Shown piece after piece: positions 4,437-18,293 of a stretch of DNA of 27,398 bases; the first letter of the stretch is position 1; each line of letters opens with the position of its first letter. Both the position numbers and the translations under genes were made by a program. Source of the DNA: a virus; the IMG/VR virus record IMGVR_UViG_3300010354_000499, positions 1 to 27,398 of that record, one strand, 5' to 3'. The notes beneath the pieces were generated by a model. The model saw nothing but the letters and a program-made list of their open reading frames with translations. It was not told the DNA's origin and did no database searches.

Positions 4437-4597
4437 TTAGTTAAAATGTTTTCCAGTGATATTTATAAGGTTAGGTGGATTTTTTTCTTGACTTTTGAGT
4501 GCTTTGCCAACATACTTTCGATTCTTTTTCCTTTCTTCAGAATTGCCATCTTCAATTTCTGGAAGAATCTCGACAGTTGGCTTTACTGCTTTTTTTC
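4437..4597 (-). other. Candidate programmed -1 frameshift site and C-terminal extension frame
   Basis: The 284-aa gene ends GAA AAA AAG CAG TAA, which contains the dnaX-type slippery heptamer A AAA AAG in the correct phase (seven A at 4590-4596, G at 4589). A slip of -1 opens a frame of 50 codons (AVKPTVEILPEIEDGNSEER ... NLINITGKHFN), ending TAA at 4437-4439. That frame has a TGA just before the slippery site and no ATG, GTG or TTG, so it cannot be an independent gene. A GGAG lies 10 nt upstream of the A-run, like the dnaX Shine-Dalgarno-like stimulator. No strong downstream hairpin was seen. A missing A in the assembly would give the same picture. Confidence 0.5.
4460..4467 (-). promoter_or_regulatory. 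T4-type late promoter for the two small late genes
   Basis: The minus strand reads TATAAATA, about 40 nt ahead of the ATG at 4420, with the CGGAGG ribosome-binding site between. The box lies inside the -1 frame extension of the upstream gene (4437-4597). Confidence 0.75.
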
Positions 4598-5437
4598 TTC
4601 TTCAATCTCCATTTGTTCAGACATTTTCTTTTTGGCTTTCATGATCTGCCCAATCTTTTTACGACGAGCAGCAAGATACTTATCCGACTTATCGTGGTCA
4701 CCATCGTTATCAATGTCCTTGTCTTCTTTACCAACAGGATCTAAAGCTTCTTTAACTGCTTTGTTTTTTGTTTTCCAAGCAGTAGCATAAGCAATACCCT
4801 TTTCTTTCTTGGTTAACTCACCATCCTCAGAATAACCTTTCTTGATGTGCTTGACCATGCGCTCATACTTTGCACCAGGAGGTGCTTTCTCGTCAAGCAT
4901 CAATTCACCAATTGGTTCGTACCCCGCCTTCACACAGTTATTAACTTCTTTATCACCTTTCATTTTGGTGCCTTGCTTTTTATATCCCTTCCAGCAAGAT
5001 GTAAATCCATTATCATCTTTACCATCCATTTTCTCAAAGACATAATGAACGCCCTCAACATAGATGTTGAAAGCTTCTTTCATTTTCTCTTTCTTCTCTT
5101 CTGCCTTACCTTCCTTATGCTTCTTCTCACCCTTCTCTTCTTTCTCTGGCTTCTCCCATGCTTCTTTAGCAACTACGTTGGTGTACTTAATATTGTTGCC
5201 ATGTGATTGCTTAACACCAGCTCCAGTGCGGAGATCGACAGCAGGATCAGCAGCACCTGCATTTTCTTTTGGATCTTTTTTCGAAAAGTTATCTTCGCCA
5301 CCTTTCTTTTGTAAAGATGGAATACCTTCTTCAGCAACAACTTTTTTGCCGCTAAAATATAATGCTGTGGATTCAATTAATGCTTTAGAATAATCGTCGT
5401 TATGACGGATCGTTGTCGATGGTTTCTGTCTTTCCAT
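4583..5437 (-). CDS. Lys/Glu-rich, EF-hand-like virion-type protein (function unknown)
   Basis: The 284-aa protein is highly charged, with a Lys/Glu-rich region at about 92-122. A small Cys/Trp/Gly domain (FTSCWKGYKKQGTKMKGDKE, residues 145-164) comes next, then a segment seen repeatedly in marine myovirus structural proteins (MVKHIKKGYSEDGELTKKEK, about 194-213). An EF-hand/dockerin-like loop DIDNDGDHDKSD (241-252) has acidic residues at the usual Ca2+-binding positions. This suggests a calcium-binding head or internal virion protein, but the role is inferred. It overlaps the upstream 95-aa gene by 38 nt. It ends at a slippery sequence that may add 50 residues, giving 333 aa (see 4437-4597). 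Confidence 0.75.
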   Translation of the reverse strand: MERQKPSTTIRHNDDYSKALIESTALYFSGKKVVAEEGIPSLQKKGGEDNFSKKDPKENAGAADPAVDLRTGAGVKQSHGNNIKYTNVVAKEAWEKPEKEEKGEKKHKEGKAEEKKEKMKEAFNIYVEGVHYVFEKMDGKDDNGFTSCWKGYKKQGTKMKGDKEVNNCVKAGYEPIGELMLDEKAPPGAKYERMVKHIKKGYSEDGELTKKEKGIAYATAWKTKNKAVKEALDPVGKEDKDIDNDGDHDKSDKYLAARRKKIGQIMKAKKKMSEQMEIEEEKKQ

Positions 5438-5687
5438 TTGTAAAGAATATACTTTTCCTGTCTTTATTTATGTTTTCAACAACATTAACTTCCCTAATGT
5501 CTTTAACCCAAGCACGAAACATTTGTTTATCTTCAGTAACGGCTATTATATAATTAACACCAGATCTTATAATAGTACCTTTTTCGCCTGTGTTAACATT
5601 CATGATAACATTTCCTTCTTGAAAGATTTCCTTCTGCTTATATCTTTTTTGCGTTGCTTCTTGTTTTATTTTGCGGAAATCTTTCAT
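5400..5687 (-). CDS. 95-aa protein with a KOW/SH3-like core (function unknown)
   Basis: Its core reads GEKGTIIRSGVNYIIAVTED followed by KQMFRAWVKDIREV. This beta-rich pattern resembles KOW or SH3-type barrels and recurs in many small marine myovirus proteins, often near structural genes. The N-terminus is basic and helical (MKDFRKIKQEATQKRYKQKE). The start at 5687 has no clear ribosome-binding site. The A/T-rich stretch at 5697-5711 holds two overlapping AATAAATA late-like boxes, but they lie so close to the ATG that any leader would be under 10 nt. The gene overlaps the next one by 38 nt, which suggests coupled translation. No specific function can be given. Confidence 0.75.
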   Translation of the reverse strand: MKDFRKIKQEATQKRYKQKEIFQEGNVIMNVNTGEKGTIIRSGVNYIIAVTEDKQMFRAWVKDIREVNVVENINKDRKSIFFTNGKTETIDNDPS

Positions 5688-5713: not shown

Positions 5714-5786
5714 TGGAGAATAGCGGACTCGAACCGCTGACATCCTGCTTGCAAAGCAGGCGCTCTACCAACTGAGCTAATTCCCC
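5714..5786 (-). tRNA. tRNA-Ala (anticodon UGC)
   Basis: A complete 73-nt cloverleaf. The acceptor GGGGAAU pairs with AUUCUCC and includes the G3:U70 wobble that identifies alanine tRNAs. The D-arm (GCUC/GAGC), the anticodon stem-loop CCUGC-UUUGCAA-GCAGG and the TC-arm (GGUUCGAGUCC) are all present. CCA is not encoded. It would read GCA and GCU-type codons. Confidence 0.95.
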
Positions 5787-5790
5787 TAAA

Positions 5791-5877
5791 CGGAAGGTGG
5801 GCGAGTCGAACGCCCAAGGGCTTTAACACCTCAACTGTTTTCAAGACAGGTTCCGTCGCCAATCGGATTGACCTTCC
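5791..5877 (-). tRNA. tRNA-Ser (anticodon UGA)
   Basis: An 87-nt class II tRNA. The acceptor is GGAAGGU/ACCUUCC with discriminator G, the anticodon loop is CUUGAAA (anticodon UGA), and a long variable arm is typical of serine. The TC-arm is GGGCGUUCGACUCGCCC. CCA is not encoded. It lies 4 nt from tRNA-Ala, and the two are likely one transcript. Confidence 0.93.
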
Positions 5878-5885
5878 AGTATTTA

Positions 5886-17038: not shown

Positions 17039-17224
17039 TCATTCCTCCATTACATACTGTAGATCATCATGATAACACTCTTTGATTGTTCCGTCAAGTG
17101 TCTTTACAAACAATTTAAGGTTTTGCCCACCGATTATTTTAACTGTCTCGCCGTTTTTTAGGACGGCGAGATTACCTAAGTAACCGTGAAACTCAGAATG
17201 GGGCGGCGTTGAGTTCCGTTGCAT
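17039..17224 (-). CDS. 61-aa KOW/SH3-like protein (function unknown)
   Basis: The core LGNLAVLKNGETVKIIGGQN, then LKLFVKTLDGTIKECYHDDL, is a compact beta-barrel type sequence like KOW or SH3 folds. I chose the ATG at 17224 because a GGAGAAGA ribosome-binding site lies just upstream. The frame is also open to 17296, but that extension lies wholly within cobS coding sequence. The chosen start still overlaps the end of cobS by 32 nt, implying coupled translation. It precedes the DUF3310-like gene by 1 nt. No function can be assigned. Confidence 0.75.
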   Translation of the reverse strand: MQRNSTPPHSEFHGYLGNLAVLKNGETVKIIGGQNLKLFVKTLDGTIKECYHDDLQYVMEE

Positions 17225-18293
17225 TTTCTTCTCCATTAGCATTAGCATCAATTTTGTCATACAGTTCCATGAAAACTGTTTTAGTTTCTTCGTCAAAGCG
17301 ATTCACACAAACTTGAATCGCTTTCATCCGCTTGCCAAAGATAGTATATGCACGGATGATGTGAGACAGACGACGAGTAGAAATCACCTCATCAATACCA
17401 CCATCCTTAAAGGTTTTACGGATAATGTCTGCCCAAGAAGCAAGCTTCTCACAAAACTCAATGTCAGTTCCTCCAAGGGAAGTCATCAGTTTTTCAAGAA
17501 TCTTTTGCTCAATTTTAGCAGTAGGATAATCTTGCTCAAAGGTAAGAGCAAATCGCTCAAGGAATGCTTCGTTCAGAACGTTAGTGCCGATGAAGCGACC
17601 ATCATCACTACCCTTACCTTTGGTGTTGGCAGTAGCAACAACGTTGAAACCAGCAGCAGGTTTGACATACTTACCAGTTTTCTTAAGGAACACACCTTTG
17701 CCTTCGAGGATTGACTGAAGGCACATCACTTTATTGCTGGCAAGATCAATTTCATCAAGCAGCAGAATGGCGCCCCGCTCAAGTGCTTCGATCACGGGAC
17801 CGTTATGCCACACCGTTTCACCATTGATCAGGCGGAAACCACCGATCAGATCATCCTCATCAGTTTCGATGGTGATGTTGACACGAATCAGTTCACGCTT
17901 CAGTTGAGCACAAGCTTGCTCCACACTGAAAGTTTTACCGTTGCCAGAGAGACCAGTGATGAAGATAGGATAAAAGACACCAGAAGAAATAATCTTCTTA
18001 ACATCACTGAAATTACCAAAGCTGACGAAGTTATCATCTTTTTCAGGAATCAAGTTTTGTTGTTCAACTGGAGCAGCAGACGGACTGTTGTAAGTTTTTT
18101 CAAGTTGTTCTGCGGTCAAATTCCAACGACCATGACCAATTTTATATTGTTCAAGTCGCTTCGTAATTGTTTGATACGAAGAATCAAACTGTTCACATGC
18201 TGCATTGATAGCATTGCTACCAAATTCATTGCCGTAATTTTCATTGATAAAATTAACAAGGGCGGTTTGGTCAATCGTGGATTTGCGGGGCAT
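17193..18293 (-). CDS. cobS: CobS-like AAA+ ATPase (MoxR/cobaltochelatase class)
   Basis: Widely annotated in cyanophages as the cobaltochelatase subunit CobS of B12 synthesis. The 366-aa product has an N-terminal helical region (1-70) and an AAA+ domain with Walker A GLSGNGKT (114-121), Walker B LLLDEID (177-183), sensor 1 ATAN (220-223) and the ERF segment (246-248). I chose the ATG at 18293, with AAGGAG upstream; a longer frame to 18317 has no good start. The next gene upstream encodes a VWA/HExxH protein of CobT-like plan, so the pair may be an AAA+/VWA remodelling machine. Whether it acts on cobalamin is unproven. Its start is 83 nt after the VWA gene. Confidence 0.9.
   Translation of the reverse strand: MPRKSTIDQTALVNFINENYGNEFGSNAINAACEQFDSSYQTITKRLEQYKIGHGRWNLTAEQLEKTYNSPSAAPVEQQNLIPEKDDNFVSFGNFSDVKKIISSGVFYPIFITGLSGNGKTFSVEQACAQLKRELIRVNITIETDEDDLIGGFRLINGETVWHNGPVIEALERGAILLLDEIDLASNKVMCLQSILEGKGVFLKKTGKYVKPAAGFNVVATANTKGKGSDDGRFIGTNVLNEAFLERFALTFEQDYPTAKIEQKILEKLMTSLGGTDIEFCEKLASWADIIRKTFKDGGIDEVISTRRLSHIIRAYTIFGKRMKAIQVCVNRFDEETKTVFMELYDKIDANANGEENATELNAAPF

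Follow-up and report, generated by a model that had tools for sequence, protein, structure and literature searches.

A probable programmed −1 ribosomal frameshift that would add a C-terminal tail to a conserved gene of T4-like cyanophages

The DNA analysed here (the window), a virus record of 27.4 kb, has the gene content of a T4-like cyanophage; the virus is a phage of aquatic cyanobacteria. One of its genes, encoding a protein of 284 aa, ends at a site that is best explained, by a wide margin, as a signal for programmed −1 ribosomal frameshifting, with a probability of about 0.92. The majority of ribosomes would read GAA AAA AAG CAG, stop at TAA and release the 284-aa protein. A fraction would be detained there, through rRNA pairing with a GGAG on the 5' side and an RNA structure on the 3' side, would slip backward by one base on A AAA AAG with lysyl-tRNA(UUU), and would translate 50 further codons to make a longer form, predicted at 333 aa. 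Two forms of one protein would be produced in a set ratio, with the long form bearing a conserved C-terminal module. The sequences show the site, its conservation and that of the upstream motif, selection on the tail in the −1 frame and, at the family level, a localised downstream structure; from these we infer the slip, with a rate yet to be set.

The slip site and its conservation

The gene is read on the minus strand and ends in ...GGAGATTGAAGAAGAAAAAAAGCAGTAA, i.e., GA(A AAA AAG)CAG TAA: an in-phase heptamer of the X XXY YYZ type, which starts at the second base of an A7 run (4596-4590), lies in the overlap of the 0 and −1 frames and is followed by CAG and the stop (Table 1). From 4601, the −1 frame runs without a stop to its own TAA at 4439-4437, and there is no ATG, GTG or TTG among the 50 codons past the slip. 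The initial annotation had described a dnaX-type heptamer at the gene end and a startless 50-codon −1 frame behind a TGA, and both descriptions are correct. It had also placed a GGAG 10 nt upstream; the motif is there, but this distance is that to the A-run, with 11 nt separating the motif from the heptamer.

Table 1. Elements of the predicted frameshift site in the window and the basis for each
Feature	Position	Strand	Basis
0-frame gene, 284 aa, PHROG 4359, T4-GC842 / GC1080 type	4583..5437	minus	relatives compared
Shine-Dalgarno-like 5' stimulator GGAG, 11 nt 5' of heptamer	4607..4610	minus	conserved spacing, synonymous-codon test
TGA closing the −1 frame just 5' of the slip site	4602..4604	minus	read from sequence
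Slippery heptamer A AAA AAG, in phase	4589..4595	minus	sequence and relatives
0-frame stop TAA, 3 nt 3' of heptamer	4583..4585	minus	read from sequence
Predicted −1 frame extension, 50 codons (AVKPTVEILPEIEDGNSEER...GKHFN) and TAA	4437..4589	minus	PHROG 11250 match
Candidate stimulatory stem, 5' arm GCCAAC, 7 nt 3' of heptamer	4576..4581	minus	relatives compared
Candidate stimulatory stem, 3' arm GUUGGC	4506..4511	minus	relatives compared

The site is conserved in dozens of related T4-like cyanophages, laboratory isolates included. Relatives of the main protein confirmed in IMG/VR number 423, of which 80 were fetched; about 60 of the 80 contain matches to the window tail, which lie in frame −1 with respect to the main gene. 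A search with the tail alone returned 54 loci, and all 33 that were inspected carry the tail in −1 and have an in-phase A AAA AAG just 5' of the stop of the 0 frame, with no in-frame tail fusion among them. The two records closest in the tail (L174 and L175, 87% identical there) have the window's own GAAAAAAAGCAG TAA. The same arrangement is found in nine isolates (S-PM2, Syn1, S-CAM1, S-H9-2, Sf-CH11, Sf-CH3, S-CAM3, S-RIM32 and Sf-FR1), and in the single-cell virus AG-345-P14 the heptamer and the stop come with a −1 frame that is long and divergent. The exact pattern GGAGATYGAAGAAGAAAAAAAGTRA occurs in 77 viral stretches: 74 of the 76 parsed have a VEVMP-type tail, and in the remaining two the tail is divergent or cut off. 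The distance from heptamer to stop is 0 or 3 nt in all 64 sites compared; many of the sequences are closely related, so these counts overstate independence and are not independent trials. In the tree of the main protein, slippery sites are scattered across deep branches. In a broad range of cyanophages, isolates among them, the homologues thus have the extension in the −1 frame, and in the slippery group neither of the outcomes named initially as contrary to a frameshift was found: there was no run of eight A, and no homologue that stops short of the tail.

Selection, stimulatory elements and other routes to the tail

The statistics of the heptamer and of GGAG come from a non-redundant set of 47 genes. 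Where two lysine codons follow an A (A-KK), they are spelled A AAA AAG in 3 of 105 cases in gene bodies vs. 47 of 47 at the terminal site: the heptamer is avoided inside gene bodies and, beyond chance, occurs at each of the tail-bearing slippery loci examined. GGAG or GAGG lies upstream in 40 of the 47 genes, as compared to a mean of 17.5 and a maximum of 27 in 200 synonymous recodings. The −1 frame is conserved, coding and under selection: dN/dS of the tail is 0.36 in this frame vs. 1.14 and 1.64 in the other two, and there are no stops in the −1 frame vs. 105 and 257 in the others. At the protein level, the tail thus evolves in the −1 frame alone.

In the slippery family, a Shine-Dalgarno (SD)-like 5' stimulator is found within about 7-14 nt of the heptamer; in 45 of the 64 sites, GGAG and the heptamer are 11 nt apart, and 5 of the 64 have no SD-like motif upstream. 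The anti-SD CACCUCCU (CCUCCU) is present in the 16S genes of picocyanobacteria. Downstream, 60-nt folding windows along 600 nt reveal one clear minimum, which begins 5 nt past the heptamer and has a mean z of −2.38; outside the site, in windows not overlapping the upstream end of this region, z is about −0.5, with a range from +0.1 to −1.0. At the family level, a downstream structure starting about 5-9 nt past the heptamer is present, and in the window alone it is weak.

This structure takes two forms, a local hairpin in many lineages and a long-range stem in others. The long-range stem, with its 5' arm about 7 nt past the heptamer, occurs in the S-PM2/S-RIM32 and window/L002/L174 lineages, with z of −2.8 in S-PM2, −5.5 in S-RIM32, −4.0 in L002, −3.6 in L174 and −1.2 in the window. 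The initial annotation noted no strong downstream hairpin; a candidate GCCAAC/GUUGGC stem is nevertheless present, statistically weak in the window, with strong versions at the corresponding position in relatives. Both sides of the long-range stem have changed in 4 of 10 pairs (hand-trimmed arms, seven sequences), and the pair and cell counts were reached by 19 and 12 of 500 shuffles, respectively. Many relatives have the local GGCA...TGCC hairpin, which the window has lost; its covariation is modest and confined to one pair because its 3' arm encodes the fixed residues MP.

As regards host translation, a Cyanobium genome, taken as a host type only and possibly not that of the phage's host, has one lysine tRNA, with a UUU anticodon, among 31 standard-length tRNAs. 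Roughly half of bacteria have just one lysine tRNA, a feature that has been discussed and tied to the slipperiness of A AAA AAG (PMC5009743). Taken together, the −1 homologues, GGAG, the structure 3' of the site and the purifying selection seen in the tail's −1 frame support the programmed −1 frameshift that had been proposed from the window.

Could the polymerase, and not the ribosome, change the frame? If RNAP added an A on the A-run, some mRNAs would encode the fusion, and identical products would be expected; runs of 6-7 A do stand beside the stop. A-runs can slip during transcription, usually if they are longer than 7 (PMC3711429), but the runs at these sites never exceed 7 (7 in 57 of 64 sites, 6 in 7 of 64). 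Moreover, an in-phase heptamer ending in G, an SD-like element and a downstream structure are all conserved, though polymerase slippage needs none of them. Transcriptional slippage is thus a very unlikely source of the fusion.

Less plausible still is the view of the tail as a separate small protein, made by reinitiation after the stop at a GTGA overlap or at the ATG of VEVMP. Annotators and PHROGs do treat the tail as separate, a TGA directly after the heptamer makes GTGA with a possible overlapping GTG start, and one clade of relatives has a genuine ATGA. However, the stop is TAA in 27 of the 64 sites, which gives no start there; the VEVMP ATG has no SD before it, and a start at this codon would drop the conserved residues that precede M. 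The tail of L002, like that of the window, is without a usual start codon (ATG, GTG or TTG), and independent initiation consequently fails for both. The invariant heptamer would also be left unexplained.

The clade with the genuine overlap comprises 12 non-redundant relatives in which ATGA, not a frameshift site, precedes the same tail: L090 (S-WAM2), L095 (Sf-CH1b), L097 (S-CAM4), L030, L033-L035, L042-L044, L069 and L074. In the main-protein tree, a branch with full support (100/100) sets these relatives apart, and A AAA AAG is missing in all of them but L074, where the heptamer adjoins ATGA. It appears that the frameshift and the coupled start were swapped during evolution for the same tail, and the clade provides a natural comparison of a frameshift and an ATGA overlap serving one tail.

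The two weakest alternatives can be put aside. An assembly or sequencing error that hides eight A and a single continuous gene has next to no chance of being right: homopolymer errors are possible in such contigs, and L011 has an A-run elsewhere in the gene (about 2771-2870) that shifts the frame before the gene's usual end, probably through a contig error or a natural indel, but no relative has an in-frame fusion, and the same arrangement in L174, L175 and other relatives and in isolate genomes rules such an error out. The idea that the tail is what is left of a longer, decaying gene, or a frame open by chance, would suit the short tails of some relatives (31 codons in Syn1) but can practically be dismissed given purifying selection in the −1 frame, the lack of stops there and the conserved site.

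Domain content, neighbourhood and annotation

The 284-aa protein is modular, with CWKGY, KYERMVKHIKK and DxDxDGDxD segments. The KYERMVKHIKK...ATAWK segment is part of the 0-frame body in the window and its nearest relatives and part of the −1 tail in L032, L038, S-H9-2 and Sf-CH11 (L085, L086); a DUF3008 segment is present in the tails of S-PM2 (L082; a Pfam match) and S-RIM32 (L089). Since segments reside in the body or in the tail depending on the lineage, the tail resembles an exchangeable slot. A tentative proposal, to which we give somewhat less than even odds, is that the −1 frame of Kyanoviridae is an exchangeable C-terminal domain slot: DUF3008, KYERMVKHIKK and CWKGY segments would move between the body and the slot, so that evolution would tune how much of a domain is made by having it expressed in full, only upon a slip or, within the ATGA clade, as a product of its own.

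The window protein has solely a sub-threshold coiled-coil match in Pfam, and a search of PDB sequences with the protein profile gave no match; structure prediction of the 0-frame protein yielded a pLDDT of 47.8 and a pTM of 0.16. The adjacent gene encodes a head protein, and isolates also have a cytidyltransferase neighbour, a family that has been detected in virions (PMC3037559, PMC10665884). Because of these neighbours, a virion- or head-associated role is plausible.

On the minus strand next to the gene, a 95-aa ORF (5400-5687) has relatives labelled as ribonucleotide reductase alpha subunit, NrdB or cytidyltransferase; it is too short for a reductase, and the label is therefore probably a misannotation passed between records. 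Genes for tRNA-Ala(UGC) (5714-5786) and tRNA-Ser(UGA) (5790-5878), also on the minus strand, lie just 5' of this ORF. A second frameshift was considered at 17039-17296 (minus strand), where a small ORF of PHROG 4819 overlaps the end of a 374-aa gene. It was dismissed since an internal in-frame ATG, with a GGAG six bases ahead of it, points to a normal start near 17224.

In databases, the tail is annotated as a separate small ORF or omitted. The 'hypothetical' ORFs S-PM2p143 and Syn1_164 and PHROGs 11250, 11051 and 30268 are most likely tails of the preceding gene. In the open papers searched on cyanophages and frameshifting, we found no description of a frameshift in the PHROG 4359 gene or of any other recoding event in T4-like cyanophages, and the PRFect paper does not mention cyanophages. 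The dnaX-like type of signal is known; its cyanophage instance is apparently undescribed and would give T4-like cyanophages a recoding event of wide conservation.

Comparison with known frameshift systems

Extension of a phage protein by a slip near the end of its gene, with two forms of one protein as the outcome, is familiar from T7 gene 10A/10B and from the coat proteins of T3 and A2; the T7 10B extension is about 50 residues long. By contrast with the PHROG 4359 gene of cyanophages, these are major head or coat genes and use other slip sites. The window gene was considered as a capsid extension of the T7 10A/10B type, and no capsid match was found in PHROGs, Pfam or PDB sequences. A frameshift fusion product is likewise made from the tail assembly chaperone genes (gpG/gpGT) of long-tailed phages, but these represent another family in another gene neighbourhood, and an assignment to gpG/gpGT, examined by homology and by a location ahead of the tape measure gene, was set aside: the gene of the window belongs to PHROG 4359 and is located between the cytidyltransferase/NrdB-like ORF and the head protein gene. 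T4 itself is without a G-T type frameshift (PMC5009743).

In its signals, the cyanophage site is most like E. coli dnaX (tau/gamma), with which it shares A_AAA_AAG, an SD-like element about 10-11 nt upstream and a downstream stem-loop; a single lysine tRNA with a UUU anticodon, seen in the Cyanobium genome taken as a host type, may be a further likeness. The gene is unrelated, and the outcome is reversed: in the cyanophages, the 0 frame ends right away, and it is the shift that would yield the longer product. A similar reversed arrangement exists in some other dnaX genes, e.g., in Chlorobium (PMC5009743).
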